From: Tridacna crocea | Taxonomy: Eukaryota; Mollusca; Bivalvia; Cardiida; Cardiidae | Direction of reading: 5' to 3' | DNA length: 64,000 nucleotides | NCBI GenBank assembly: GCA_943736015.1 | Contig: OX031058.1 | Span: 24,577,001 to 24,641,000, forward strand | Shown: positions 47,186 through 64,000 of the stretch, piece after piece | Position numbering within the stretch: the stretch's first letter is position 1 | Layout: each line of letters begins with the position of its first letter | Translations under genes and position numbers: made by a program | Notes under the pieces: generated by a model | Database searches by the model: none | Told to the model about the DNA's origin: nothing | What the model saw: the letters and a program-made list of their open reading frames with translations, nothing else

Positions 47186-50100
47186 CTTCCCTCAACCCCT
47201 AAGAGAAATCTTATTAAATTAGACAGTGCAGATTCAAGCTTAAACATACTGCACATTCTAAGGACATTGGGACGTCCTATTAGGCAAAGGGCCAAGTGCT
47301 TTTCCAGTATCGGGTACTACAGCTTTTTAAAAATCTGACCTAAGTGCTTATTCTCAGGGGGTGCAGACTAAGATCAGTATGCATGATAGTCAAACACTGG
47401 ACTTACACATACAGCCAAATTGCTTCTTTTACAGAGTCGTAAAAAAAAACGGGATTTTTTGGTAAAGAGTTAATATATCTGCTGCCGGTATCGACCTTTT
47501 TTGCTGTTGGTAATTCTTCTGCATATCAAAGGACCAGTCTACGTCAAGATTCTGAGGGCTGTTTTATAAACTAGATTTCATGGACCCATAGTTACGTGAC
47601 GTCTTGCTTGGTATATAACATTATGGAGATGAGTTAAACCTCCTTTTGTCGCAGCAAGGCTCATATATTTGCTCAGCCTCTCAGGTGAAAAATGGAAAGC
47701 ACTTAACTTCTGCACATTTTTAAAATTCTGATACAATATAAGAAAAATGCGCAAAAGCACACCCAATATTGATAGACTGACAGCATTTAAAGGCAAGTAT
47801 AGCAGATCGCCTGGTAATTCTACAATCGAAGATTTTTTTCATAAACCAGCAATCGGAATACAGAGAGAGCACAGAGGCAAATAAGTAACACAACGATAAA
47901 TCTCAGAAACACATCTTACCTATATTTACATTGTCTTTTGCAGAGGTTGGATACCAACCAATCAAGTTATTAGTTTTACAAAAATCATCCAGACGCTTAG
48001 AATCTAATTCTGCATCTTCTACATCACACTGAAATGACATCACAGGGCACTTAATTATTTACCAAATAATCCAATTTGTAACGACCCTATGTGCGTGATT
48101 GTGAGGTAAAGCGTCGGCCTCTTAACCATAAGGTTCCGACCTCAAATACCCGGAAGCGTGTGTAAACTTTGAGCTTGTTCATAGGCCCACACATTCGGCG
48201 GGAGCACTGGTGTAGTTCCAGGAAGCAGAATCGAAAGATATTAGAAGAGGTTGAAAGAACTTGTTTCTCAATCGATGTAAAATAAGTATGTTTAAACTAA
48301 ACTACCCTAAGGTAAAACGCTTTTTGAAACACAATGGGAAAAGGATGAGATGCTGGAAAATACTTGTTCCCTCCTACCAGTGTCTTCTATCCTTTCATTT
48401 CCGGTAATTTGAGAAATGTCAAATGGGGGCATATCGTCTGCACTTTCTCTCAATCTAGACAAATCTAAAATTCTGTTGTCTGGTAAAAGAATTGAACACT
48501 CTAACACTTAGGGAGCGACTCAATGGCCCTTAATGGGCAGTGTACTTCAAGATCAGACAGCACAGAAAGTGCAGTCTGATCTTTGATCTACACTGTCCAA
48601 CGAGGAGATATTTTTTCTGAAAAAATACCTATGCATAAGCAAAGTCATATATAGTTTTTACTATCGACTTCAAAGTTTCATCCTACTATAGAAAGATAAA
48701 AGTTTAATATCTAGAAACTGCTGCATATGTATGAGAAATGAAAGAACACTTAAAATATAAGAACACAATTTAAAAAAAGTCAAAAATGGTAATTCCTTCA
48801 AGAGCCTCGCTTTTAGGCTTGAAAAATAAACGAATAATAATTATGTGATGCTTGTGTTACAAAGATCATTCAAGATGACCGTAGAAACATTTTCTTTTCT
48901 ATTGAGAAAATGCGCGACTCAGTTTAAGGTGTCCGATAGGTAATCCAGAGGTCCTGAGTTTGATCTTTACTCGCAGCAAAGGATTTTCTTTAATGCAACG
49001 TCCTTTGGCAAGGCATTGCAGAGTCTCGGTCAATGATTTTGGTGAAAGACCGGTCACACATTAATTGAATAAAATGTCGTCATGGCATAACTGCATGGTG
49101 TTAAGAGTGACAGACGACATTTTTTTCGACCATTTGCCGATCAACTAAATATTAGTTCAATTTATAGAAACAATACCGAGATAGTAACCAATAGCATCAC
49201 ATGACTACTTTGTTGGCATTCAAAAGGGCCCCAGTATTACTTTTGTTGAGTCATGCCGTTGCTCAAGGTTGCAAATGTTTTTAATCAATTAAAACTACAT
49301 TGTCTTCTCTATGTTAATGGTTGACAGGTTGGCTATTAAAATATCATAAAATTCGGAAATGTTTGTGCAACATAATGGGAAGTTTACTTACCTTATTGGC
49401 TAGTAACATCACAGGAACCGGCTCCTCATTGGCTAACATCACTTTGGTATTGACGTCATTCAACCACTGTATTGGGTATGGGTAGAAAAATAATATGAAT
49501 CAAAAGATCAATGGTCAAAAGTATAATTATAGAGATCACATCGTATTTCAATCTTGATCGCATCATGTTAGATGTGCCAATTTATTCGCATCAATTTGTC
49601 GGTTTGCTTCCAAAACCTCGTAACTACAGCTTGTAACAAGCTGTAGTTACGAGGTTTTGGAAGCAAACCGACGAATTCTGGTTCATCCAGTTTTTCATTA
49701 TAGCATGTCTATCTATGTATGTAACGTTTAACGAATTCAATTAAAATATACATGTACTGGTATTTTTACGAAGATTATTTGAAAGATAGCCTTCAGTCAA
49801 TACAAAGAAATTAGATATCACAATTCGTAATATTTCACAAACAACAAGAAAATTAGATACAAGAATAGACTGTTTGTATTCTACAGTCTGATCGTACATT
49901 ACAAAACCAAAAAGTTTTGCCTAAAAAGCCAACGTATTTTAAGTGTTTTAAAAGTAATGCGGATCAGGAACCAGTGCACACAGAAAAGTTATACAGTCTG
50001 ATTGCTGGTACTCTTTGTCATTACTTTGATATAAAAACTGTAACCAACCTAAAATTTGCTTTATCTAGATGTTTCCCCGTTAAAGCTTAGAAGAGATTGT

Positions 50101-51252
50101 CTTATAAATGTGTATAGTTATTTTTGCATGGTCACAGTGTTCATTAGGCAAAATAAGACAGGCAATAGTAATACATTTTATTATATGAACACGTAAATAT
50201 GCTTTTGGTTTCAATTTTTACAAAGTTTAAACAAAAATGTGTTTCAGGGTTTTTTTTTTTTTTATCAGGAGCAATCATGTTACCTTCAATGTGTTCGTCC
50301 ATTTATTACAAAATTCTGAAACCGGAAGGGTGTTGGTTTTTTTGAGGCGGTAGTATATTATAACTGAATCAGTCCATCGAAATCAACTTGTAACAGAATG
50401 TGTTGCTTTCTGATATACATGTACACAATATTTTATCATGTCTAGAGAAAATTTACTTCATTTACCTTTGGTATTGAGTCAAATGTGGCTGGTCTGGAAA
50501 AGAAAAATAAATAGGTAGAAAAACAAGAACTGTCTTTAACCCTTCACCAAACAACAAAATTTTAGACTTGTCCAAATTGAAAGCATTTGCAGTTGACAAG
50601 ATAAACATGACTCAAAAATTGAAACTGGACTTTAGAAAAATAGAAAACATTGTGGGAAAAGGAGAAAATGCTGGTTACCAGCATTTTCCCCTTTTCCCAC
50701 AATGTTTTCAGAAGGCTTCTTCCTTGGGGGTCGTACAAACCAGGGATTGTTTGGTAAAAGGTTAAAGAATTTAGACAGCTTAAGAGGATCAGGGAAAAAA
50801 ACTTTTTCTCCTGAGAATAATGTGTCTCAAAATACATTGAGAGTTCCGGTATTGCCTTTAATACATGTATTTGATAACCAATTATCTAATCACCGATTAG
50901 AAATAACGATAATGGTAATAGATTTTTCACAGGCATTGCTACAACACGTAACAGTTGTCACGTGATATTTTATGAAGGCAGGGATTTCATTTCACACAAA
51001 GTTTGCGTACTAAACGTCACATAACTATTGCTATGAGGATTATGTATAAATGGGTAAGGCGTGTTATAACAGAAGACAAACTGCATATCATTATACAAGG
51101 AAATACTGAAGTAACTGCAGGGCTTAAATCACATAAGGTGGGATGTAAGTGTGTCCCTGTGTACACAGCATTAGAACACAGAAAGTACAATAATGATGTT
51201 TGAAGAAAGAAAAACTCACCTGGACAAATCAAAAACTATAATAGCAGCTATT
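46145..51252 (-). CDS. Rab32/Rab38/Rab29-type small GTPase, 3' five exons
   Basis: Exons, in transcript order: 51252-51220, 50493-50466, 49466-49392, 48028-47920 and 46338-46145. All have GT/AG borders in phase. The product has IVFDLSR, then [10 protein letters not shown], the G4 motif NKCD split across two exons, [14 protein letters not shown] (G5, with the GW before TSAK typical of the Rab32/38/29 group) and [12 protein letters not shown]. The tail ends SECCT, a CCX-type geranylgeranylation signal. This group acts in lysosome-related organelle and Golgi-lysosome traffic. The exon(s) for the P-loop, switch I and DxAGQ were not found between 51253 and 64000. They may lie beyond the right edge, which would put the transposon below inside this gene's intron. 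The C-terminal linker (about 45 residues) is acidic and unusual. Confidence 0.85.
46363..46584 (-). mobile_element. H1 MITE, complete copy
   Basis: CCCTTTCCC subtype, a few bases upstream of the Rab last-exon acceptor. Confidence 0.88.
46609..46673. mobile_element. H5 element, short internal-deletion copy
   Basis: GTAATGCAGAGAAATGACC at left and GGTCATTTCTCTGCATTAC at right, perfect inverted ends with 27 bases between. Confidence 0.9.
46833..47060 (+). mobile_element. H1 MITE, diverged
   Basis: CCCCTTTACCAAATAATC left end, decayed hairpin, TTTTGTCTGACACGG at right. Confidence 0.6.
47131..47181. repeat. (CT)n microsatellite
   Basis: About 25 CT units in the last Rab intron. Confidence 0.97.
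47418..47475 (-). mobile_element. H1 MITE, end fragment
   Basis: CAGAGTCGTAAAAAAAAACGG then TTTGGTAAAGAGTTAA. Confidence 0.5.
47488..47660. repeat. H3 repeat, one side
   Basis: GGTATCGACCTTTTTTGCTG to AGGACCAGTCTACGTCAAG and onward to GCAAGGCTCATAT; the palindrome is lost. Confidence 0.6.
47920..48028 (-). CDS. Rab exon with the G5 motif
   Basis: 109 nt from [16 protein letters not shown] through [14 protein letters not shown], leaving one base of an Asp codon; acceptor ATTTCAG, donor GTAAGA. Confidence 0.9.
48051..48495 (+). mobile_element. H1 MITE split by a SINE insertion
   Basis: The left end TTAATTATTTACCAAATAATCC (48052-48092) and the hairpin and right end (48300-48495, TCTGGTAAAAGAATTGAA) flank a tRNA-like SINE. 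Confidence 0.7.
48093..48299 (+). mobile_element. tRNA-derived SINE (family S1)
   Basis: The tRNA-like head (GTGATTGTGAGGTAAAGCGT, GGCCTCTTAACCATAAGG, GGTTCCGACCTCAAATACC as box B) is followed by a body ending CAATCGATGTAAAATAAGTA. Other copies are at 37569-37760 and 6325-6410. Confidence 0.7.
48945..49105 (+). mobile_element. SINE-like fragment
   Basis: A box-B-like GGTCCTGAGTTTGATC is followed by CCTTTGGCAAGGCATTGCAG and GTGAAAGACCGGTCACAC. In a Rab intron. Confidence 0.45.
49392..49466 (-). CDS. Rab exon ending in the G4 motif
   Basis: 75 nt (25 codons), phase 0 both ends; acceptor AATACAG, donor GTAAGT. It encodes [16 protein letters not shown] and ends LLANK. The Cys-Asp of NKCD is on the next exon. 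Confidence 0.87.
49597..49677. mobile_element. H4 palindrome, near-perfect
   Basis: GTCGGTTTGCTTCCAAAACC, then TCGTAACTACAGCTTGT, mirrored exactly to ACCGAC; about 36 bp per arm without a loop. In a Rab intron. Confidence 0.92.
49691..50465. other. Rab intron sequence
   Basis: AT-rich; two faint H6-like pieces (49870-49895, 49990-50005) and a poly-T run; otherwise nothing recognised. Confidence 0.55.
50466..50493 (-). CDS. Rab microexon, 28 nt
   Basis: The exon lies between TTTTCCAG and GTAAAT. It starts with one base completing Arg and encodes PATFDSIPK. It is identified only because both neighbours demand it in phase. Confidence 0.82.
50536..50765 (-). mobile_element. H1 MITE, complete copy
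   Basis: It lies in the Rab intron about 40 bases upstream (in transcript sense) of the 28-nt microexon. Confidence 0.9.
51220..51252 (-). CDS. Rab microexon, 33 nt
   Basis: The exon lies between TTTTGCAG and GTGAGT and encodes [10 protein letters not shown] plus split codons at both ends. The G-domain strand matches the Rab pattern VGAFIVFDISR. Confidence 0.85.
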
Positions 51253-51481
51253 CTGCAAAATACAAAATACATATTAATTTAAATACATCCTTCTTATGAT
51301 AGTCTTTCTTTCCAAGAATTTAAGCGAGTTGTATGGCCATTTATAAAAAAGTTGTACAAGTTATTAAAGCTCGGTCAGAGCGGCTAATGGATATATAACG
51401 GAGGTAAAACGGACATAAACGTGCAGAATTCGGTTATCCGGTGAAAAGATTCATCTCCTCTGCCATTCGAGACTCACGACA

Positions 51482-51590
51482 TCAGTGTGTGGAGCGAAGA
51501 AACCACACAAAGACTGTACGAGTACTGCACAGGTTATCAGTGTGTGGAGCGAAGAAACCACACAATAACTGCACGAGTACTGCACATGTT
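51482..51590 (+). repeat. Two 54-55-bp tandem copies
   Basis: TCAGTGTGTGGAGCGAAGAA, ACCACACAxxxACTG, ACGAGTACTGCACA repeated once. The following 400 bp is scattered with ACCGGA/CCGGAC words. No gene recognised. Confidence 0.75.
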
Positions 51591-51592
51591 AC

Positions 51593-52631
51593 AGAAAAAC
51601 TGCACCTGTACCGGATATGTGCCGGATAATAAACGGTCTGATAACGAATGTCAAAGTTCGAGTAGCGGACAAGTACCGGATTAAACGGAAGTGCAACGCA
51701 TTAGAACCGGACAAAACGTTCTTCCAACGTACGATGACCGGAAATGTACCGAACACCAACGTACGAGGAACGTACCTGTCACGTGACATGCAAAGGGTAT
51801 AAATCGTCAGAGGCATCCAAAGCCTGTCATTTGCATGTCTCTGTCCGTTTTGTCCGGTGGAATTTTTAAACATGTTCAAAACTTCCCAACGGACAGAATG
51901 GGTATCACCGGACGTCGCCAGACAAGTATACTGGATTCACTGGACATAGAACGGATACGAACGGGTAAAATGTGACCAAACCTTTAGATTTTTTTTTTTG
52001 ACGAAGTATCGAGCACTTTCGTCCTTCTTTTTTTTCATACGGTACTTTTCAATTTCCGCAATTACATGTATTTACAATGGTTTTGCTTCAGTGTCATGCT
52101 TAATTCAGCAAAAAAAAAAAACGTTTATCGGCTACAATGATAGTGTCAAACCTATATCAGTGGTCATGTCTATTTAGCAGCCACATGTATTTACATGTAG
52201 TAACCACAGTGCTAAGTTACAAAAGTTGAAGTCACGTAAATACACTGACGTCGTTCTTAAACAGACACTTGTCTTTTAAGACCAGTATTTTTTTTTTTTA
52301 TCCTGCTTGATAAATACAGATTTGAGTGTTTCTCTTTTGTCATTTAACGTAAAAAAAAGAGCCCACACTTTCTCGTGGTCAGAGATTTTGAATCTACATG
52401 TATTGTAACTATGACAATTAACAACGGCGATCATTTAAAGGTCTAAGATTCGTTTAGAATATATCAAATAAATACAAAGCAAAAATTAACTCTGATGAAA
52501 TAATAAAAGTATCTTTGAAAATTCGACGAGGAGCAAAAAATAATAACATACGCATATTTGTAGTACACCCGAGTCATATGCCCGAAACGTTCATGGCCTG
52601 CAATGTCCCTGTTTGCAAACGGAAAAAAATT
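51593..52631. other. Sequence upstream of the visible Rab exons
   Basis: I looked here on the minus strand for the Rab P-loop/switch exon and saw none. Two poly-T stretches and ACATGTATTTACA repeats only. Confidence 0.5.
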
Positions 52632-52710
52632 ATATTAGAGGGAGAGAACACACTGTGGGAATTGGAGAAAACACTGGTTACCAGCTATATTTTCTCCCTT
52701 CTCCATTTCT
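52632..52710 (-). mobile_element. H1 MITE hairpin remnant
   Basis: ACACTGTGGGAATTGGAGAA and TTTTCTCCCTTCTCC around ACTGGTTACCAG. Confidence 0.55.
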
Positions 52711-52991
52711 TTTTTTTTTTAGCCTTCTTCGTCTAAGCATTTGAACACAGAAAGTACAATAAAAATTGTACATATATACAAAATTTACGGAGTATACTCC
52801 ATCCATTTATTTCATTTGTTCTTTTGCAGTACTTAACTTCTACTGCATCTTACTGAAAGTGTAAAACAATGTTCAGAGTAATCCAGTCATCTAGATTCCG
52901 TCTAGATACCCAGTCAAACTACGGATACACAGATTTCTGGTCACTGGGACAAGTGCATTCATTTCGATTTCGAAGTCCTTTATTTAATTTA

Positions 52992-53205
52992 TTAACACAC
53001 AATCCCAATTTTTAACGATCCTGGGAAAGAGGCCTTTTGAAAACATTGTAGGACAAGGAGAAAAAGCTGGTAACCAGCATTTTCTCCTTTTTCCACAATG
53101 TTTTCTACCCTTCCCGAAACAAATTTAAGTTTTGGGGTAATGTTTATTTAGTCGTCTGCAAATGCTTTCAGTTTGGACAAGTCTACAATATTGTCGTTAG
53201 CTTAA
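52992..53205 (+). mobile_element. H1 MITE, right end shared with next copy
   Basis: TTAACACACAATCCC left end. Its right TTAA (53202-53205) is also the left end of the next element. Confidence 0.85.
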
Positions 53206-53328
53206 CCCTTTCCCAATCCCTGGTTTTTACGGGTCTGGAATAGAAGCCTTTTAAAAACATTTTTGGAAAAGGAGGAAATGCTTGTAACCAGCATTTTCTC
53301 CTTTTCCCACAGTGTTTTCTACCCTATG
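53202..53328 (+). mobile_element. H1 MITE, truncated after the hairpin
   Basis: It stops at TTTCTACCCTATG, where the minisatellite region begins. It may mark the left edge of the large transposon. Confidence 0.8.
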
Positions 53329-53344
53329 TAGTGATTATTCTAGA

Positions 53345-53410
53345 CCAAGCAAAAGGGCAGGGAGGCAGGAAAAAGGGGCAGGGAGGCAGGAAAAAGAGGC
53401 AGGGAGGAAC
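53345..53410. repeat. Three-copy ~20-bp minisatellite (GGGCAGGGAGGCAGGAAAAA)
   Basis: Three near-perfect tandem copies on a purine-rich strand, between a truncated hairpin element and the palindromic array. Confidence 0.9.
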
Positions 53411-53547
53411 ATTGCCTTGTTGAATGACTTCTCATATCAGATAAAGGCAAATCAGTGTCCTTCACTCTTTTCGAAACAAGTTCTAACTAGAACTTTGGTT
53501 ATGAACTTACGGTGGCACAAAAGTGACATGGAAGATATATTTTATAC

Positions 53548-53828
53548 TACGTGCGCACGCAGTAGTTAATACGTGCCCACGTAATAACTAATACGTGCGC
53601 ACGTAATACTATTGCGTGCGCACGTATTAGCTAATACGTGCGCACGTATTAACTAATACGTGCGCACGCAGTAGCTAGTACGTGCGCACGCAGTAGCTAA
53701 TACGTGCGCACGTAATAACTAATACGTGCGCACGTAATACTATTGCGTGCGCACGTATTAGCTAATACGTGCGCACGTATTAACTAATACGTGCGCACGT
53801 AATAACTATTACGTGCCCACGTATTAAT
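53548..53828. repeat. 13-unit array of a 22-bp palindrome (TACGTGCGCACGTA core)
   Basis: Thirteen units, period 21-22 bp, each centred on the self-complementary TACGTGCGCACGTA or a variant (GCGTGCGCAC, TGCCCAC), linked by TAAYTAA-type spacers. Units 2-5 and 8-11 are near-identical blocks, a higher-order duplication. The core strictly alternates pyrimidine and purine, so it is prone to Z-DNA. It ends 70 bp before the transposase ATG. Confidence 0.95.
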
Positions 53829-53830
53829 CG

Positions 53831-53860
53831 ACCAATCAGACCTCTACCCCTATGACGTCA
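53831..53860 (+). promoter_or_regulatory. Candidate transposase promoter: CCAAT box and CRE
   Basis: CCAAT at 53832-53836 and a perfect CRE palindrome TGACGTCA at 53853-53860, 39 bases before the transposase ATG. No TATA box is clear. Confidence 0.45.
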
Positions 53861-53898
53861 CTCTGGTAAACAAATATCAGTCGCGCTGCATTTTCACA

Positions 53899-54300
53899 AT
53901 GCCTCGAGTAAATTATTGTGTTCCTTTGTGTACTGCCGAATCTAAAGGTAACCTACCTTTTTATCGGCTTCCCAAGAAAGGAACGCGTGAAAGACAGACT
54001 TGGATAAGGCTGATTCGGAACGAAAACTTGCGAACAGAGTCTCAATGGACCAGCGTGTGCAGTCTCCACTTTGTTAATGGACGCAAGACATATGATGACT
54101 CTTGTCCTACAATCTTTCCATGGTCGCAAGATTAGGAGAAAGTAATTTACACGTATAACAACAGATCTGACACTGCAAGACCGAAATTCAGATCACTCAA
54201 AATGGTTCAGCCTCAGTCTTACAGGAAAAGACAGAAAACTGGTGAAGACGGAAGTACAGCAAGAGAAAAGAGGATGAGAAAAAGACTTTTTGATACACAG
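53899..54300 (+). pseudogene. Transposase exon 1: THAP zinc finger and basic tail, with in-frame TAG
   Basis: The THAP C2CH module takes the first ~78 codons. TAG at 54133-54135 interrupts the frame, which then stays open for 55 codons of Lys/Arg-rich sequence to a CAG|GTATAC donor. Confidence 0.85.
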
Positions 54301-54369
54301 GTATACCATATTCTTTTAAATCAATAGATGCAAATGGATGCATATTTTGGACAATAACCAACCAATCAT

Positions 54370-54547
54370 TTTTTTTTTACCAAACGAGCCCGACTTTAAA
54401 ACGACCATGTGAAAGAAACATTTTGAAAAGATTATAGTAACCAACAATTTTTCCTTAACCCACAATGTTTTCATACCTGTCAGTGACAAATATGTCATCG
54501 GCAAAGTTGGATGTGTCAGATATTGTCTGTTGTTTGGTCAAGGGTTA
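54370..54547 (+). mobile_element. H1 MITE, diverged, in transposase intron 1
   Basis: TTTACCAAACGAGCCCGAC left end and GTTTGGTCAAGGGTTAA right end; most of the first hairpin arm is deleted. Confidence 0.7.
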
Positions 54548-54611
54548 AAATCACAACCCGTAACTTACTAAGATTAAAGTTCAATCAAACAAACTAACAG
54601 CAAATCAGCTT

Positions 54612-54860
54612 AGTTCTTTACCAAACAACAAAGTTTTTAAATGGACCACATTCGAAGCATTTGCAGACAAGACATCATACCAAATGATGATTTCTGTTGC
54701 CTATAGAAAACAGTGTGAGAAAAGGAGAAAATGCTGTTTAACAGCATTTCTCCTTTTCCCATCTGGTTTTCAAAATGCTTCTTCCATATGGTTGTTAAAA
54801 GTTGGTATTGGCTTAACTCTTTACCACACAATCCTACCTTTTAACGACCCAACGAAGGCA
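54612..54860 (-). mobile_element. H1 MITE plus fragment of a second sharing its end
   Basis: The first copy ends at a TTAA (54812-54815) that starts a new CTCTTTACCACACAATCC end, broken off at about 54860. Confidence 0.7.
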
Positions 54861-55174
54861 TGGGCGGCTCCAGAGGGGGGAACTGGGGGTCCGGACACTC
54901 CTGGAATTTTGGCAAAAATGTGGTTGCCAGATTCGTGAAATGGTACTGGTTTAATATTGCACAGCATTTATGTAAAATACAGCCATAACTTTAAAAAAGA
55001 AAGGTTCTAAATGTGGACACTTCCTCATGGTTAGAACTGGAAACGTTGACTTTTCTTGTAAACGGCTTACATCCACTGAAATCCGGAAACCAAAGTATCA
55101 TATAATAAGACGAGTGTGTTTTCGGTGGGACCCCCCCCCCCTGAGAAAGATATCTGGATCCGTGCTTGGAAGGG

Positions 55175-55318
55175 GTGTTGTCGAAAGATTTTGAATGCTG
55201 GTTACCGGCATATTCTCCTTTTCCCAAAAGGTTTTCCACCTTTCCCAAAACAATTTTGATTTTTTAGTCACCTTTAATTTGTCATCTGCAAGTGCTTTGA
55301 ATTTGGACTAGTTTAAAG
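55175..55318 (+). mobile_element. H1 MITE, right two thirds
   Basis: Hairpin remnant and the segment CACCTTTAATTTGTCATCTG; both ends are lost. Confidence 0.65.
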
Positions 55319-55629
55319 AGGGTAGTCCACTGGCCTAACATTGAAAGGATTCATTCTGTCTCTTGCTATTTCACAATATTTGGTCTAACATATTACCCTT
55401 GATCTTGATGGTGTAGTTTTCTTGATTGAAGGATTGTTTAACTGGTATCACATATTCATGTATTTCCTGGGTTTCTGTAGTACAAGGCTGTTGCCCTGAA
55501 GTGTCTTGCCCAGGACACTCCAATAAAAAACATAGTGTATCCAGTGACGCTTTAACTCGGAGCCTCCACTATCTTTTGGTCCACATGAAGGTGTAATTTT
55601 TTCTTTCCATACTGTATTGTCTATTTCAG

Positions 55630-55746
55630 GCAAATATCAGTACCTTAAATGTGGAGAGAACATCATATACAGTAAGCTTGGATGAATCTACAATCGCAGA
55701 TGAAAATCATTTGTTGTTAGAGACAGTCGGACAGCCAAATGCTCAG
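55630..55746 (+). pseudogene. Transposase exon 2
   Basis: 39 codons, phase 0 both ends, acceptor CTATTTCAG, donor CAG|GTTATA. It encodes an acidic linker (ANISTLNVERTSYTVSLD). There is no domain of its own; it is placed by phase and splice signals. Confidence 0.65.
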
Positions 55747-56252
55747 GTTATAATATTGTCTTTTTCTTAACTCTTTACCAGGCAAGAAATTTTTATGAAA
55801 GAGTCTGTACATAGATAACAGTTAAAATGTTACACAAAATATGCATCTTGTAGGGTTGAAAACTTTGTGGTCACTGGTACATGTATTTTTGTCTTTTCCC
55901 AAAGTTAACTTTAAATTGTCAATGTTTTAAGATTTAGAATAAATTTTGTAACATTTATAACCCATGATGTTATTTTGCATTGTGGTTGAGAAAAACTGGC
56001 AAGACTGTAGCATAGCATTTCAGAGCCCTAGCATCGAACAAAGTTTTAGTTTTGGTTGCAGATTACAAATGTTATCAAAAGTATGAAGTTTGTTTCTCCT
56101 ACTGGAGAAAGAAGTATGGAAAAAGGAGGAAATACAGAACACAAGCATTTTCTCCCTTTTTCCCTTTTTCACTCCTCAGTTTTTGATAGGTTCATAATAG
56201 ACCTGCATTCTTTGATTTGGCAAGATGAACAAATACCTAAAAAAACAGCTAG

Positions 56253-56481
56253 TTAACCCTTTACCCCATAAGGCATTTCTGTGGTATTTCTAATTGACCC
56301 TAAATAACAACAAGGATGAAGCCGTTTCTTATGTGTATATGTTACCTTTTGACAGCATAGAAAACATTGTGACAAAAGGTGAAATTGCTTGTCAGGAGCA
56401 ATTTCACCTTTTGCCACAATGTTTTCCATAGGCTCCTGCAAGCAATGAGTAGAAATGAGTATCTATGGAGTAAAGGGTTAA
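56253..56481. mobile_element. H1b variant MITE in transposase intron 2
   Basis: Ends TTAACCCTTTACCCCATAAG and GGAGTAAAGGGTTAA as in 39494-39723. The hairpin is changed on both arms (AAAGGTGAAATTGCTT/GAGCAATTTCACCTTT). It sits 73 bases before exon 3. Confidence 0.85.
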
Positions 56482-56553
56482 GGAACAAAATCAAGTCAAA
56501 AAGACTTGTGCCTTTATGACTATCATATTCCAAATCATATTTTTGTATTTCAG

Positions 56554-57856
56554 GAAAAAGCCTGCAAAAACCAAAAGGGTAGTACAGTAATAGTAAAAGA
56601 CGAACTTCAACAGCTGCTCCAAAGTATTCTAAACAAATTATCCTCCCAAGATTCTGACCCTGATCAAAACAGTATAAGGGAATTACAAGCCCTGCTGATT
56701 GTTGTGACCAAATTGCTTATGAATGTGAAAGAGCAGTTGGACTGTGTGGTTGAGTTGAGACATTATGACAGATTTTTCCTAAAAAGGTTTGAGGGAAGTG
56801 ATTTGGACATTAGGTTTTTGGACAGGATTTTACTCCTACCAGGCTTTGATGACATTCTATCATAATATACTGGAGCAGGAGGCAAAGTGTTTACAGTACT
56901 GGGGCGCAAATAACTCAACCACAAAAGATGGAGACAGTTTGAAATGTGGCAGAAAGAGAACACTTATTCCAATGGATGAAATGTTCATGACCCTAGTGAA
57001 ACTAATATACTGGAGCAGGAGGCAAAGTGTTTACAGTACTGGGGCGCAAATAACTCAACCACTAAAGATGGAGACAGTTTGAAATGTGGCAGAAAGAGAA
57101 CACTTATTCCAATGGATGAAATGTTCATGACCCTAGTGAAACTAAGGCAAGGCTCTGCCAACTTGGATCTGGCAGAGAGGTTTGGTATTAGTGAAATCCA
57201 TGTGTCACGCATATTTATTACATGGGTGAACTTTATGCACAGTGTCTTGTGCAGTTTAGACATTTGGATGTCAAGGGGAAAAATAAGGCGTAACAGTCCA
57301 AATATATTCAAGGAAATTTACCAGGATGTACGGATTATAATTGACTGTACAGAAATATCACTGGAAAGACCATCTGACTTTGAGGTACAGGCAGCAACTT
57401 ACTCCACGTACAAGAGTTGCAACACGTTGAAAGGCCTCATTGGTACAAGTCCAAATGGAATTCCGACATTCGTTTCAGATCTTTTCGAAGGGAGTATTTC
57501 TGACAATCAGATAATTTTTGATAGTGGATTGGTTGAAAAACTTCAGGAGGGAGATGCCATCATATGGCAGACCATGGATTTACTGGACGGGAGTCTCTTG
57601 CAAAACATAAAATTAGACTTGTAATCCACATTTCTTGAGCGATAAAGACCAAATGCAAATACAGAATCTTGTTGAATCTGTTTCTATTGCTCGTGTCAGA
57701 ACTCATGTTGAAAGGCTCCCGGGGCGCTTGAAGCAGTGGGTCATTTTGTCTTCTAAAGTGCCTATCACTTTTTGGAAGCACATTAATCACATCTTCCAGT
57801 TGTGTGTAATGTTGGTTTTATTTTGGCCCCCATTAGTAGATAAGGACTCTGAGTAA
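56554..57856 (+). pseudogene. Transposase exon 3: HTH and DDE catalytic core, frameshifted
   Basis: It begins after GTATTTCAG. The catalytic core is readable only by switching frame at four places. All three acidic catalytic positions can be located (DCTE, MAD, HVER), and the C-terminal NFxPPLV-like end appears as FWPPLVDKDSE before TAA. Confidence 0.85.
56863..57142 (+). repeat. 140-bp direct tandem duplication inside the transposase
   Basis: Copies 56863-57002 and 57003-57142 are identical but for one base (56923 A, 57063 T). The unit covers the codons from ILEQEAKC to FMTLVKL. 140 is not a multiple of three, so the duplication itself shifts the frame. Confidence 0.97.
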
Positions 57857-57875
57857 ATTGATGAGTGAGTGCAGA

Positions 57876-57924
57876 ACCATTCTAAGTGCCTATACATGTA
57901 CATTGTATAGGCACTTAGAATGGT
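57876..57924. terminator. Perfect 20-bp-arm hairpin between the convergent transposon genes
   Basis: Arms ACCATTCTAAGTGCCTATAC (57876-57895) and its exact complement (57905-57924) enclose a 9-base loop. It begins 20 bases after the transposase stop. Its type is uncertain: it may be a 3'-end or bidirectional-terminator-like structure, or a small insertion. Confidence 0.5.
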
Positions 57925-58130
57925 ATTGAACTCATCCAACAAAATGGTCATGATACATGTACTTTTCAACAGAATTATGAATGCAGAGCAGTCATTATTT
58001 AACAAAGTGAACTTGTCATCTGCAGATACAATTTTGACAAAGGTCTGAAATTTTGTCGTCTGGTAAAGATTTGAACCTTTATCCTGCAATGCCAACTGTC
58101 AACTCCTCTTGGAAAACTTTAAAGTTTTAA

Positions 58131-58298
58131 TTAACCCTTTCCCAAACAAGCTCTGGTTTTTACTTGTCTGCCATACAAATCTTTTGAAAATACTGTGGGA
58201 AAGGAGAAATTGCTTGTAATGAGTGAAACTTAAAATTATCGTCTGCAAGCCCTTTCAATTGAGAAGAGTCTAAAATTTGTCGTTTGGGACAGGGTTAA
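58131..58298 (+). mobile_element. H1 MITE with internal deletion
   Basis: Both ends are good (TTAACCCTTTCCCAAAC, GTTTGGGACAGGGTTAA); the second hairpin arm is missing. Confidence 0.8.
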
Positions 58299-58571
58299 TA
58301 ATTAATCTTTCTGTGCAAATGTGTTCCATTTTTACCCACCTATTACTTGTCAGTAAAACAAATGTTAGCTATTAAAGGTTTCTCTGGAAAAGGGAAAAGC
58401 ATCCACCTTCATAAATCTGACTGCAGGCTAACCAGAGTCTAAATTTTCACTTACATTTTATTTCCATTTTCATCAGGACAAATGTTTTGAAGAAGTAACA
58501 ATTACTAAATTTCAAAATTTTTTATTAAAATGGCACATTTTATAAACATGGTAAGTGTTGTGAATTTCAAT

Positions 58572-58792
58572 CTATTACCACACAGTCCTGAATTAAGCAT
58601 TCCACTATAAGAAACTTTTGAAAACATTGTGGAAAGATAGAAAAAATGCTGGTAACCAGCATTTTCTCCCTTTCCAAGTTTCCTTTCTTTAGATGAGAGA
58701 CAAATTTCATATTTCATTGACATTTTATTTGTGATCTGCTAATGCTTTCAAAGTGAGTAAGTCTACAATTCTGTCATCTAGTAAAATAAATT
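58572..58792 (+). mobile_element. H1 MITE, diverged
   Basis: ATTACCACACAGTCC left end; the hairpin is still paired around GGTAACC. Confidence 0.7.
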
Positions 58793-58905
58793 ATGTGTCA
58801 ACTTTCCTTAGTCTTTTTTACATAATACATGTATTTTATGTTTATCAGTGAAAGTCTTAAATGGAAGAAAAAATGCATAATTGTAGACATTGTGGACATC
58901 TTAAA

Positions 58906-59252
58906 TTAACACATTACCAAACAACCTTGAGTTTTAATTATCATAAGAAAGAAAGCTCTTGAAAACTTTGTGAGAAAAGGAGGAAATGCTGGTTACCAGT
59001 AGTTTCTATTTTCTCACAAGTGCTCTGGGTTTTACCAAACGACAAATTTTTAGATTTGTCCAAATTCAAAGCATTGGCAGACGACAATATAAACATGATT
59101 CAAAAACTGAAACTTGACTTTAGATGTGTAGAAAAAATTTTGGGAAAAGGAGAAAATGCTGGTTACCAGCATTTTCTCCTTTTCCTGCGATGTTTTCAGA
59201 GGGCTGCTTCCTCTGTGTTGTAAAAACCAGGGATTGTTTGGTAGAGGGTTAA
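58906..59252. mobile_element. Two adjoining H1 MITEs in opposite orientation
   Basis: A diverged plus copy (58906 to about 59030) abuts a good minus copy (about 59031-59252, TTTACCAAACGACAAAT to GGTAGAGGGTTAA). Confidence 0.8.
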
Positions 59253-59269
59253 ATGCAAATTCTTTGTTC

Positions 59270-59393
59270 TAACACATAGCATACAATCCCATCTTTTAAC
59301 ACTCCTTAGAAAAAAGGCTTTTCGAAAAAATTGTAGGAAAAGGAAATAGTAATGGAAACATTTTCTCCTTTTCCCACAATGTTTTCTACCACT
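59270..59393 (+). mobile_element. H1 MITE, truncated after the hairpin
   Basis: It runs from ACACATAGCATACAATCCC to TTTCTACCACTC and then passes directly into the end of the YqaJ exon. Confidence 0.75.
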
Positions 59394-59410
59394 CAAGACC
59401 TATTTTCATC

Positions 59411-60121
59411 CTTTTTTTATAAAACCCCTGTGCTACCAAAGTAGGTACAATGTTCATTGTGTGGAAGTCCAACAACTTTTCTTTCACTTTTTCCAAAAAA
59501 CTTGGATCAAAGTTCACACGAAGTATCAAAACTTCCTCATCTTCTTTAGTGAAAAGAACAAAGTCACACCATCTTCGTTTCGTCACTCCCATTTGCATTT
59601 GAATTTAATAGTAATGATAATGGCTTTCTTTCATAATGATTGTTTCTCCAACTGCTTTAAGTGAAAACTGGCTAGAAACCTTTTTCTTTCAATGGCTTCT
59701 TTAGGAGAAATATCTCTACAAGAATAAATACACTTAATTTCAACCAATCCATGTGGATCTTTCTCTGAAGGATCTGTAATCAGGCCATCAGGACTAATGT
59801 AGCAGCAAGCTGCCCAAATTCCAAATCAACAAACAAACCACACCCACAGACTGTTATATTTACACCTTGTGCTGCTTTCTGCTGCTTGTATTTAAGGACA
59901 ACAACTTCATTATCTATCCCATATTTGACAGCTGGAATGGATGTCAATTTTGGTTTTCTTATCTGAATAATATCTTTAACTAGGGTTCCAATATCTCCCT
60001 TTCCGACAAACTTTTTGGCCTTGCTTGCTGTAATCCTGTCTTTCTTGTGCCTGAACCACAATGGGTTTTTTACTTGTCCATGAGTTTGCTTTTCGATTTC
60101 TTTCTGTCATGCCTCTGTGAC
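59411..60121 (-). pseudogene. YqaJ-like nuclease exon, with TGA, TAA and two frameshifts
   Basis: It starts after CTTTATAG. The TGA four codons in (60109-60107) could be a CpG-decayed CGA. The nuclease motifs are spread over three frames. Similarity fades at about 59411, where the sequence turns into a truncated hairpin element. Confidence 0.82.
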
Positions 60122-60169
60122 CTATAAAGGCAATAAATTAGCTGTTTTCATTTATCAACTGCTTTCAAG

Positions 60170-60385
60170 TTAACTCTTTATCACACAATCCCGACTTTTA
60201 ATGACCCTGAGAAAGAAACCTTTTAGAAAACCCTATGGGAAAAGGAGAAAATGCTGGTAACCAGCATTTCATCCTTTTCACACACTGTTTTTGACCCTGT
60301 TGGAAAAAAAATCAACCTTTTTCTTTCTTTACTAAACCTAATGTAAAATATTGCAGATGAAAAATGTTGCTTGCTTAAAGATTTG
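60170..60385 (+). mobile_element. H1 MITE, right end lost
   Basis: TTAACTCTTTATCACACAATC left end; hairpin with scattered mismatches. Confidence 0.75.
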
Positions 60386-60391
60386 ATCTCT

Positions 60392-60621
60392 TTAACCCTT
60401 TACCAAACAATCCCTGGTTTTCAGGACTCCAGAGGCAGAAGTTGTTTGAAAACATTGTGGGAAAAGAAGAAAATGCTGGTAACCAGCATTTTCTCCTTTT
60501 CCCACAATGTTTTCTACCCTTCACAAATTAAATTTCATTTTTTTTGTCACATTAATTTTGTTGTCTGCAAAAGCTTTCAATTTGGACAAGTCTAAAACTT
60601 TGTCGTTCTGTAAGGAGTTAA
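60392..60621 (+). mobile_element. H1 MITE, complete copy
   Basis: TTAACCCTTTACCAAACAATC left end and CTGTAAGGAGTTAA right end. Confidence 0.9.
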
Positions 60622-60655
60622 CAGAACTTTATGTTAACTTTCTTACTGAGGTCAT

Positions 60656-60886
60656 TTAATCCATTACCACACTATCCCTACTTTTGACGATCCTGAGAAA
60701 GAAGCCTTTAGAAAACATTGTGGGAAAAGGAGAAAATGCTGGTTACCAGCATTTTCTCCTTTTCCCACAATGTTTTCTACCCTTCACAACACAAATTTCA
60801 AATTTTCAGTCATTTTTATTTTGTTGTCTGCAATAATTGCTATCGATTTGGACCAGCCTAAAATATTGTCCTTTTGTGATGAGTTA
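60656..60886 (+). mobile_element. H1 MITE, complete copy
   Basis: CCATTACCACACTATCC subtype with a perfect hairpin; ends 52 bases from a SWIM/YqaJ exon donor. Confidence 0.9.
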
Positions 60887-60937
60887 AACTGAGGTTGTTG
60901 ATAAAAAATTATAAGATAAAGTCTTATATGTAAATAC

Positions 60938-61033
60938 CTTAAGTTTTTGACAAACTATTTCCTCTGGAAGCTGATGAGTATTAATCCTCTCTTCTTCACT
61001 TTCACTAGCAGTATCAGTGCTTGAGTTAAGAAT
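60938..61033 (-). pseudogene. SWIM/YqaJ gene exon, acidic linker
   Basis: 32 codons, phase 0 both ends, acceptor TCTTCAG, donor AAG|GTATTT. It encodes SSTDTASESEEERINTHQ and then PEEIVCQKLK. Confidence 0.7.
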
Positions 61034-61471
61034 CTGAAGAAAATAAATTAAATAGTTTTTCATGTATGTTGGGTTATTTTTTATCCTTTTTATCCTTTGC
61101 TTTTCATTCTAACCTTCACAATGCTAAAATCAAGTAAACTTGCTTTTACCATCAGTGCAGATCAAGATCAGACTACACAGAGCATGCAGACTAATCTTTG
61201 ATCTATATTGTCCAATACCTTACTACAGGTTATGGTTGAAACAACCTTGCACAATGTTTGAAAAAAGTTCATCATGTTTACCCAGCATTGTAAATGTTGA
61301 CAAAAGTCAACGTAAATGTTAAAGAATACATTTGTCAACCACCTGAAAGATTGGCACAGTGCTGTCCCTGTGATTATTTTCAACAACGAAAAAGACACTG
61401 CATGTAAATGTTACTTATTTCAAAGAAGCTCCAAGAATGGTTTTCGTCAATGTTGAAATTTTAGTGCTTAC

Positions 61472-61635
61472 CATCAGCAAGTCTGTTTCATGAGGTAATT
61501 GCTTCAAGTCTTCTTTTAAGGCACTGGTATCTAAGATGGCCTTTTTCATTCGTACACTGTACCCATCATAGTTTTCAAGAGGTCTTTTTCGTCGTACAGA
61601 GCGTCCAAATACATGTTTTTGGACAACACGAACAC
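61472..61635 (-). pseudogene. SWIM/YqaJ gene exon, linker
   Basis: 164 nt, acceptor ATTTCAG, donor GTAAGC. It encodes VRVVQKHVFGRSVRRKRPL and an Asp/Glu-Leu-rich end (ETDLLM). No known domain. Confidence 0.7.
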
Positions 61636-61757
61636 CTGAAATGGAAGAATCAGATTTTTTGTAAAAATGTTGAAAGAACACAGTTTGATTAGCATGGATC
61701 TTTTGCTCACCAAACATTTTGGTTTCCATTCTTAGTCCAAGTTTATTTCAAAATGCA

Positions 61758-61860
61758 TAACAGGGTTGGTGAGGCTCAGTGGTTAAAGCTTGTAATCTCA
61801 GACCTGTGAGGTATTGTGGTCACACTGATTGTGGTTCAAAGTTTCAAGTCCCAACAACAG
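61758..61860 (+). mobile_element. tRNA-like SINE head
   Basis: GGCTCAGTGGTTAAAGCTTG resembles box A and TTTCAAGTCCCAACAAC box B, too far apart and too degenerate for a working tRNA. Confidence 0.45.
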
Positions 61861-62054
61861 ACCTTCTGGTCACATGAGAAATATAAAATGAAAAAAAAAT
61901 TGTCGAAAGCGGCAGCAAACATTATAAATACACTTCGAAAGCGATGCAAAGCATCACACAAATGTCACAAATTTTCAGAACAAATGGGGAAAGCTTCTGA
62001 TGTTTGTTGTAGTACTGTACACATTGTATAATGAAAATGCACAAGACCTCTATT

Positions 62055-62190
62055 TTAACTCTACCACACAATCCCGAGTTTAAACAACCCAAACAAAGAA
62101 GCATTTTGAAAACATTGTGGGAAAAGGAGAAAATGCTGATAACCAGCATTTTCTCCATTTCCCGCATTGTTTTCTACCCTATCAAAGACA
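62055..62190 (+). mobile_element. H1 MITE, truncated after the hairpin
   Basis: TTAACTCTACCACACAATCC to TTTCTACCCTATC. Third copy that ends at this same internal point. Confidence 0.75.
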
Positions 62191-62235
62191 TTTTATAGAT
62201 TTCTTATCACAACTGGACAATGTAAAAAAAAATAC

Positions 62236-62873
62236 CTGTTTTTATGGGTTTGGTTAGCTTCTTTGCTTTTCTTGAAGGCTGGTGCCATTTCTGTTCCTTG
62301 GAAGTGCAGCTTTCTGGTGCATCATTTAAAGATTCTTGAAAGTCCAATAGGCCAAAAAGTACAATGGCTATATGATTGCACTTTCCTCCAAGTCCTGCTG
62401 CACATTTGCACTTTCCTTTCATAACTTCACCAGTGCTGTTTTTTAAAACTAAATCTGTTTGAAATGTCTTGCTCTTGTATGATGACAACACCATTCCACT
62501 GACATGTGTGTAGTCTTCCAGTTTATTATATTTTACATCACTTACATGACCAGATTTAAAAAAGTTAAAACCTTTCCTCAGTGGTTTCTGGGCAACAGGC
62601 AAATCTGTGATTGTAACAGAGTCTTCATTGTCAGAGTCTGCAGCATGAACTATCATTAATTTTCTTTTAACTAGATAGTCAACTATGCAAGCATAGTTGA
62701 AACCTCTTGGAATAGAACCCATATTTGTTGTCCAGTTTCTCAGTAATGGAAGTGGAAAATTAATATCTTTACGGATTCCGCAGTCTGCCTCAGTTAACAC
62801 ATTCTGACTACATTCTGATCCATCCAGGTCAACAACAAACTTTGAAAGTCCATTCTCTTGAAGATCTTTCACC
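62236..62873 (-). pseudogene. SWIM zinc-finger exon
   Basis: 638 nt, open throughout. It starts with one base of a split codon, so an upstream exon is required. The SWIM motif lies about two thirds along. It ends ACAG|GTATTT, leaving one base of a Gly codon. This exon by itself shows no lesion. Confidence 0.88.
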
Positions 62874-62880
62874 CTGAAAT

Positions 62881-63254
62881 ATCAAACAATGCACAATATT
62901 TTAAAAGTTATTCTGTACATCAAGTGTAGAATGTTACTAGTCCTAGCTTCTATGTGATAGGCTTTTCAAGTTATAAGTATGCTAGCCTATAGTTAGATAT
63001 ATTTATAAATAAATAAATCATTAATAAATGCCGTTTACAGGTGTTAAATTTATTAATAACAGCTGAATGGGAATCTAGTGCATATTGCTTAAGTTTGCAT
63101 ATGCTGAAGTCATCTTTTTCCACATTGGTTTAGACCAAATACAGAAAATATTCTTGTGGAAAATAACTAGAGGCGCTTGAGCACCTGTATCGCTCCACAG
63201 GCCTGATTTTTCTGTAACGGTGAAGAGAAGTTTTTAACAATTACCATTCATTAC
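62881..63254. other. Right flank of the SWIM exon
   Basis: No upstream exon, inverted end or palindromic array matching 53548-53828 was found. AGGCGCTTGAGCACCTGTAT at 63172 looks like a piece of a common dispersed repeat. Confidence 0.45.
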
Positions 63255-63448
63255 TGCATTTTAAGAAAAAAGGCTATGAAAAACATTGTGAGAAAAGAAG
63301 AAAATAAAAGTAACCTGCATTTTCTTAGTTTTACACAATAATTTCTACCCTTTTTGATACAAGTTTTACTAATTTGAAGATTTATGTTGTCTGCAACATC
63401 TTTCAATTATGGCCAGTTATAAAGATTTTGTCGTCTGGTTATAGTTAA
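63255..63448 (+). mobile_element. H1 MITE, diverged, sharing its right TTAA
   Basis: Decayed hairpin; right end TCTGGTTATAGTTAA. Confidence 0.65.
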
Positions 63449-63648
63449 CTCATTACCAAACGACAACATTTTAGGGTTGCCCAAATGGAAAGCATTTGTA
63501 GATGAAAAAATAAAAGTGACTGAAAATTTGAAAGTTGTTCTGTGAAGGGTAGATAACATTGTGGGAAAAGGTTACCAGCATTTTCTCCTTTTCCCACAAT
63601 CTTTTCTAAAGTCTTCTTTGTCAGGGATCAGTTTGATTGGATAACAAA
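63445..63648 (-). mobile_element. H1 MITE, hairpin shortened
   Basis: TTAACTCATTACCAAACGAC left end. The first arm lost GAGAAAATGCTG; the right end is eroded. Confidence 0.75.
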
Positions 63649-63797
63649 ATGCCTTATCACAACAGTAAAGCCCTGTCCCTCTTTGTACTAGGTCACCAGT
63701 AGGTCAACAAACCTTTACCAGAACTACATGTAATCAAAGTGCAGAGGTTCTCTTGTTTTATATGAAAAGGATTATAGATTATGTAAAGCAACCATCT

Positions 63798-64000
63798 TTA
63801 ACTCTTTACCAAACGACAAAATTTGGGATGTGACCAAACTGAAAGCATTTGCAGACAACAAATTAAACATTGATGAAATGATTATTTCTCTCTTTGATGG
63901 AGTAGAAAACACTGAGGGAAAAGGAGAAAATGCTGATTACCAGCATTTTCTCCTTTTCCAAGAGTGTTTTCCAAAGACTTCTTCTTTAGGGTCGTTAAAA
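63798..64000 (-). mobile_element. H1 MITE, runs off the window
   Basis: TTAACTCTTTACCAAACGAC left end with a full hairpin; the right end lies beyond base 64000. Confidence 0.85.

Follow-up and report, generated by a model that had tools for sequence, protein, structure and literature searches.

A two-gene transposon of Tridacna crocea with ISL2EU-like coding capacity and 6-bp target-site duplications

Extent and ends of the element

The window analyzed here is a stretch of 64,000 nucleotides from the bivalve Tridacna crocea, corresponding to C3:24577001-24641000 (contig OX031058.1) of a 1.05-Gb genome in 31 contigs; positions given without a contig are window positions. A transposable element with two convergent genes, one for a THAP/DDE transposase and one for a putative SWIM/YqaJ nuclease, lies near its right edge. 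With both ends read, the whole element spans 53508-65283 (11,776 bp), extending past this edge, and is flanked on either side by TGAACT (53502-53507 on the left and, outside the window, 65284-65289 on the right), a 6-bp target-site duplication. The sequence-only reading had assigned the element to 53548-62873 and considered its right inverted end to be missing. The element does lie there, but this interval is too short, and the right inverted end was found 1.28 kb past the right edge of the window.

The terminal sequences are TACGG..CCGTA, with arrays of 22-bp palindromes on their inner side. Each end is an inverted repeat of approximately 290-330 bp, which starts with TACGGTGGCACAAAAGTGACATGG, contains TACGGTGGCAC and is built of the palindrome arrays; the first 50 or so bases are identical between the two ends. 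On the left, the terminal inverted repeat TACGGTGGCACAAAAGTGACATGGAAGATATATTTTATAC (53508-53547, plus strand) matches the right end exactly and is followed at 53548-53827 by an array of about 13 copies of the palindromic unit TACGTGCGCACGTA-ATAACTAA, as given by repeat analysis and by the single-strand fold of the array (z = -20). The inner edge at 53828-53840 (plus strand) contains CCAATCAGA, judged by eye to be CCAAT-box-like, which is located at 53832 on the left and at 64996 on the right. The right inverted repeat runs from the latter position to 65283, that is, C3:24641996-24642283 of the genome. The inner-edge pattern occurs at 234 sites genome-wide with up to three mismatches.

The start codon of gene 1 follows the left inner edge after only about 60 bp. 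A further pair of inverted ends, nested between the stretch at the start of gene 1 and the right inner stretch, did not show up, the longest inverted match there being 9 bases compared with up to 11 in shuffles. The idea of a nested element, in which an ISL2EU transposon sits within an unrelated repeat, is therefore unsupported.

Target-site duplications

The ends were compared in 28 copies, consisting of 25 long copies (including that of the window) and three end-only copies; two of the first seven sister copies, whose right core falls outside the stretch read, are not among them. Identical 6-mers adjoin TACGG..CCGTA in 26 of the 28, whereas shuffled partners gave 0.9 matching on average; of the other two, one shows 7 bp and one shows 6 bp with one mismatch. 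All 28 start with TACGG, at sites picked by a pattern beginning GGTGG. The 6-mers differ from site to site and follow a loose strong-weak-weak-weak-weak-strong pattern. In all three end-only derivatives read (244, 337 and 355 bp), both the ends and the kind of duplication match those of the long copies. These results show that the element spread as one unit and with a stagger of 6 bp.

The same reading method was applied to two other families of this genome, C and D, which are described below. It gave an AT duplication in both copies of family C with both ends read, and no 6-bp repeat in two of two copies of family D, which is compatible with AT.

The two genes

Gene 1 is on the plus strand. 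Exon 1 (53899-54300) encodes a THAP domain at 53899-54132 (Pfam E 1.9e-10) and has one in-frame stop in the window copy. Exon 2 (55630-55746) is in phase 0, and its splice sites are kept in seven of seven sister copies. Exon 3 (56554-57856) contains a linker followed by the HTH and DDE parts: the region 56980-57621 matches HTH_Tnp_4 (3.6e-13) and DDE_Tnp_4 (2e-20), and a second DDE_Tnp_4 match (3.1e-8) lies in another frame at 57617-57853. These Pfam matches confirm the THAP, HTH and DDE gene proposed from the sequence alone. Gene 1 of the window copy is broken at several places: besides the stop in exon 1, exon 3 contains a tandem duplication of 140 bp (56863-57142) and, near 57560, a 2-bp lesion that is common to 12 copies. 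The DDE residues appear as IIIDCTEI, GDAIMAD and VER in the open reading frames (ORFs) of six of seven sister copies, the seventh having no ORF that passes the filter.

Gene 2 is on the minus strand. Its last exon (59386-60121) carries the YqaJ/alkaline-exonuclease domain; in the window copy it contains an early stop and, near 59800, a break in the frame. It is preceded by internal exons at 60938-61033 and 61472-61635 and by the SWIM exon at 62236-62873, which is open in the window copy; these three were delimited by GT/AG sites. Against Pfam, the window exons give Viral_alk_exo at 1e-7 and YqaJ at 0.23, the latter under its cut-off, while a 243-aa ORF of sister copy L017 gives YqaJ at 2.5e-9 and Viral_alk_exo at 6e-12. 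The SWIM exon of the window has no Pfam match, so the SWIM assignment rests on the CxC..CxH motif CKCAAGLGGKCNH, read by eye. Of the SWIM/YqaJ gene originally proposed for this strand, the YqaJ part is thus established through the sister copy, and the SWIM part stands by its motif. A candidate stretch for the 5' exon has stops in the frame phased with the SWIM exon, and the 2.1 kb from the SWIM exon to the right inner edge holds no settled exon; within the window, this remainder occupies 62874-64000 and continues to the right inverted repeat.

The splice sites were checked at 10 positions in seven sister copies, the exon-1 donor falling outside the loci used. GT/AG is kept in all seven at nine sites, and one gene-2 donor has no GT in four copies (L013-L016). 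The earlier description of a spliced, intron-bearing, convergent two-gene element of the ISL2EU type, decayed in the window copy, was right as regards structure and coding capacity, and the element has many sisters.

The Pfam scan covered 20 pieces of the window element, namely 10 exon pieces and 10 further ORFs of at least 80 aa, with a few such ORFs and the part right of 64000 outside the scan. Above the cut-off, the exon pieces gave only THAP, HTH_Tnp_4, DDE_Tnp_4 and Viral_alk_exo, and the further ORFs gave nothing. IS3/IS481-like, alpha-kinase and TET domains were absent from these 20 pieces, the rest of the genome not being covered. NCBIfam gave nothing above the cut-off for five exons, and PDB sequence searches gave nothing useful.

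Two repeats were also observed at the locus. A 21-bp purine-rich tandem repeat lies just left of the insertion (53351-53407). A palindromic repeat of up to approximately 230 bp, with the core GAAAATGCTGGTTACCAGCATTTTC, has at least 14 copies in 50000-64000, many of them within the introns of the element, and is present at several other loci of the genome.

Copy number, gene pairing and recency

A 36-bp core of the end occurs at 365 genome sites with up to three mismatches, compared with none for the reversed-pattern control. The matches listed are the first 100, which are exact matches on C1-C4 (C4 to 58.2 Mb). Among them are 38 pairs of facing ends no more than 30 kb apart, and 24 sites are unpaired. 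Both genes, on opposite strands, are held by 30 of these 38 pairs (one pair spans two copies), none holds a single gene, and the remaining eight hold neither (244, 337, 355, 403, 1055, 1686, 2159 and 7907 bp). In the last of these (C4:1684015-1691916), the first 3 kb (L062) contains a 345-aa ORF that is gag-like by eye, and the pair probably represents an end-only derivative that contains a retroelement.

Counted by the DDE exon, there are at least 104 gene-bearing copies, a lower bound obtained from the scoring of 150 of 323 candidates. Second fragments of one copy (including the duplicated piece of the window) and rows with identities of 46% or less were dropped before this count. Gene 2, judged by its SWIM haplotype, accompanies the DDE exon in the same order and orientation in 102 of the 104, and every one of the 102 SWIM-haplotype sites could be assigned to a DDE copy. 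Whole-genome pattern counts agree with this number, with 102 + 1 sites for the T5 and T4 forms of exon 3 and 67 + 35 for the two SWIM forms, both described below. Chance pairing of the two genes is ruled out by these 102 copies. As to the separate occurrence that would have spoken against a two-gene element, all but two of the 104 copies hold both genes, and no listed end pair holds just one.

Identity to the window copy, by segment, is 95-98.5% in the seven sister copies read across 10 kb, and these are 98.7-99.8% identical to one another in the five pairs compared, which indicates that the family spread recently.

Among the 104 copies, nine adjacent pairs are less than 25 kb apart, where 0.26 would be expected at random (maximum of four in 5000 simulations). 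Clusters of insertions lie, for example, at C1:49.86, C3:6.02, C3:57.69, C11:31.39 and C11:44.69 Mb, and in three cases the ends of neighboring copies are 50, 63 and 228 bp apart. Tandem duplication is ruled out as the origin of the pairs at C1:49.86 and C3:57.69 Mb because the target duplications of their members differ, and the members are therefore separate insertions. The three copies at C3:6.02-6.05 Mb are all on one strand. Such neighboring separate insertions reflect either local hopping or attraction to existing copies.

Gene damage and the two subfamilies

In all seven sister copies read across 10 kb, the CxC motif of the SWIM exon is interrupted by a 4-bp insertion, and the exon also contains a stop. 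Genome-wide, 67 sites have the insertion and 35 the uninterrupted form, the latter scored on 32 bases, with a stop elsewhere in the exon in five such copies. When a DDE exon is called open if it has a frame of at least 303 aa without a stop, 59 copies combine an open DDE exon with the SWIM insertion, and 33 combine a short or stopped DDE exon with the uninterrupted SWIM motif. Both are damaged in eight copies, both are open in two, each of which has the frame offset described below, and two copies have no SWIM partner. At a threshold of 280 aa, the copies at C9:16.33 and C10:56.46 Mb are also open in both. An open DDE exon does not amount to a whole gene 1, as the THAP exon contains stops in two of three such copies checked. 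The association between the DDE and SWIM states (Fisher p 7e-17) is overstated, since the copies are related; it represents two subfamilies and not 102 events. Nearly every copy found has damage in at least one of the two genes.

Frame offset in exon 3

At a run of five T (56815-56819, plus strand), the frame read from upstream falls one base out of register with that of the DDE part, which separates the linker of exon 3 from the latter. This was seen in all 12 copies read at the junction. With up to two mismatches allowed for each form, T5 is found at 102 sites and T4 at one site, which belongs to a damaged copy; the offset is thus present at 102 of 103 sites. The homologous transposases of families C and D cross the corresponding point in one frame. 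An intron spanning the offset was looked for by eye only, and no donor/acceptor pair of plausible length was seen. Either a +1 shift is used at T5, or, with one exception, every assembled copy goes back to a lesioned source.

Comparison with published groups and related families

As described by Han et al., ISL2EU elements make AT duplications (A/AT/T site), usually have GG ends, carry a THAP-DDE and YqaJ gene pair, have inverted repeats of 6-259 bp and an average length of about 4.8 kb, and have been reported only from animals (PMC4482050). The combination of a transposase with a YqaJ nuclease is also given as an ISL2EU feature elsewhere (PMC9179366). The gene pairing, which the sequence-only reading regarded as unusual in animals, is therefore no surprise, being a published hallmark of ISL2EU. 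Han et al. also state that the role of the second gene of PHIS elements is unknown (PMC4482050). For PHIS elements, Kojima and Bao give duplications of none or 1-4 bp, and for IS3EU they give TA..TA ends and usually a 6-bp duplication (PMC10045372). The IS3EU ends of rust fungi are TAYGG..CCRTA (PMC12730594), and the repeats of IS3EU and GingerRoot exceed 30 bp (PMC12730594, PMC10045372).

The present element resembles ISL2EU in its transposase, which has THAP, HTH and DDE parts even though its two halves do not share a frame, and in its second gene, whose YqaJ domain is under the cut-off in the window and above it in L017. It differs from ISL2EU in its 6-bp duplication (26 of 28 copies) instead of AT, in starting with TACGG instead of the usual GG, and in its length of 11.8 kb with palindrome arrays in the repeats. 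It shares the TA..TA ends and the 6-bp duplications with IS3EU and GingerRoot, whereas the transposase found in it is DDE_Tnp_4, to which that of IS3EU is unrelated. The element thus combines ISL2EU genes with IS3EU-like ends; the gene pairing is known, and the ends and the 6-bp duplication depart from ISL2EU as defined. In the literature listings and passages searched, which did not include Repbase itself or subscription papers, no earlier report of such a combination was seen.

In the same genome, loci L020-L026 represent two further ISL2EU-like families (C and D), with copies 98.8-99.8% identical in the pairs compared, which indicates that several ISL2EU-like families were recently active. 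Their transposases are 41% identical to that of the present element over the matched part only, and relatedness of the DDE domain was judged by similarity to these two families. Family C (L020-L023) likewise has a SWIM/YqaJ gene facing a DDE_Tnp_4-type transposase. It differs in its ends, AGGCCTTTCC..GGAAAGGCCT, with the AT duplication of the two copies noted above, and in having the transposase linker and DDE part in one frame. In a third copy, one end was seen and is the same, and the fourth, L020, is missing its outermost bases. For a further family, E (L029/L030), element ends were looked for and not found. At C5:3239322-3254785 (L006-L008, L027), three tandem units lie approximately 6.15 kb apart, each with an open 536-aa SWIM-YqaJ ORF and a facing DDE_Tnp_4-like ORF; in the one unit scanned, the former has a weak PHD-like tail (PHD-1st_NSD, 8e-4, under the cut-off). 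This array is either another ISL2EU-like element in tandem or a set of genes derived from such an element.

Discussion

The element is probably a cut-and-paste (class II) transposon with a transposase of the PHIS lineage, equal to ISL2EU in coding capacity but with different ends, which are cut by its own DDE_Tnp_4 lineage. This reading is favored by the domains and DDE residues, by the gene pair present in 102 of 104 copies and in 30 of 38 listed end pairs, by the 6-bp duplications seen with a method that gives AT for family C and no 6-bp repeat for family D, and by the start of gene 1 close to the repeat with no inner pair of ends. In this mechanism, the THAP domain would bind the palindrome arrays, and the DDE domain would cut at TACGG and insert the ends into the target strands at positions 6 bp apart. 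Where the transposase is dead, a copy would be mobilized in trans. The YqaJ nuclease would be dispensable in cis, because 67 copies share the 4-bp insertion that breaks the SWIM motif.

Several observations weigh against a transposase of the element's own. The 6-bp duplication and the TA..TA ends are published for IS3EU, which has a different transposase (PMC12730594, PMC10045372). In all 12 copies read at the junction, gene 1 is split between two frames, and the offset sites include both copies in which the DDE exon and the SWIM motif are open. The start of a gene at the repeat holds for gene 1 only, the first exon of gene 2 being unsettled. Codon changes between the window and the seven sisters, a small test, are near neutral, most clearly in gene 2: the synonymous to replacement counts are 19:33 in exon 3, 20:44 in DDE, 1:34 in SWIM and 7:45 in YqaJ, compared with 7:21 in an intron.

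The chances are about even that the frame offset is a fixed lesion, the true source copy being lost, polymorphic or unassembled and all copies here being non-autonomous. This concerns the offset alone and is compatible with movement by the element's own or by a foreign transposase. Its near-universal occurrence argues for a lesion, as does the fact that the DDE exon (at least 303 aa) and the SWIM motif are both open in only two of 104 copies, each with the offset. However, a programmed +1 shift would look alike, the offset is located where the proteins of families C and D continue in one frame, and the downstream DDE frame is still open in 61 of the 104 copies.

A less likely, though serious, alternative is that the ends belong to a transposon of the IS3EU type, with its transposase working in trans and staggering its cuts by 6 bp, and that the ISL2EU-like gene pair is carried along as cargo and has ceased to drive movement. 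The 6-bp duplications and the TA..TA or TAYGG..CCRTA ends are as described for IS3EU (PMC12730594, PMC10045372), and damage to one or both genes in nearly all copies is as expected of cargo. On the other hand, 30 of the 38 listed end pairs hold the gene pair, and no other transposase was seen in the gene-less pairs read, namely those of 244, 337 and 355 bp in whole and the first 3 kb of that of 7907 bp, the pairs of 403, 1055, 1686 and 2159 bp and insertions in longer pairs being left out. Moreover, no IS3-type domain occurs in the 20 ORFs and exons of the window element, which are the element's own pieces only, and about 60 bp lie between the repeat and the start of gene 1.

It appears improbable that all of the following hold together: a PHIS transposase whose cut widened from 2 to 6 bp while its ends changed as well, fusion of the THAP and DDE parts by programmed +1 frameshifting at T5, and two reciprocally broken lineages, of which one supplies the transposase and the other the YqaJ nuclease. 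That the element is an ordinary ISL2EU with an AT duplication and misread ends is hardly credible: its gene content equals that of ISL2EU, but the 6-mers vary by site and directly adjoin TACGG in the copies compared, and the same method yields AT for family C.

The length of the target-site duplication serves to define groups of transposons and depends on how the strand-transfer complex is arranged in space. If the element is indeed cut by its own transposase, the coexistence of a 6-bp PHIS-type element with an AT relative in the same genome would offer a natural experiment on what determines duplication length; under the alternative, one transposon group would be riding on the ends of another. 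The 59 copies in which the DDE exon is open and the SWIM motif broken, together with the 12 copies sharing a DDE lesion, make the need for each gene product directly testable.

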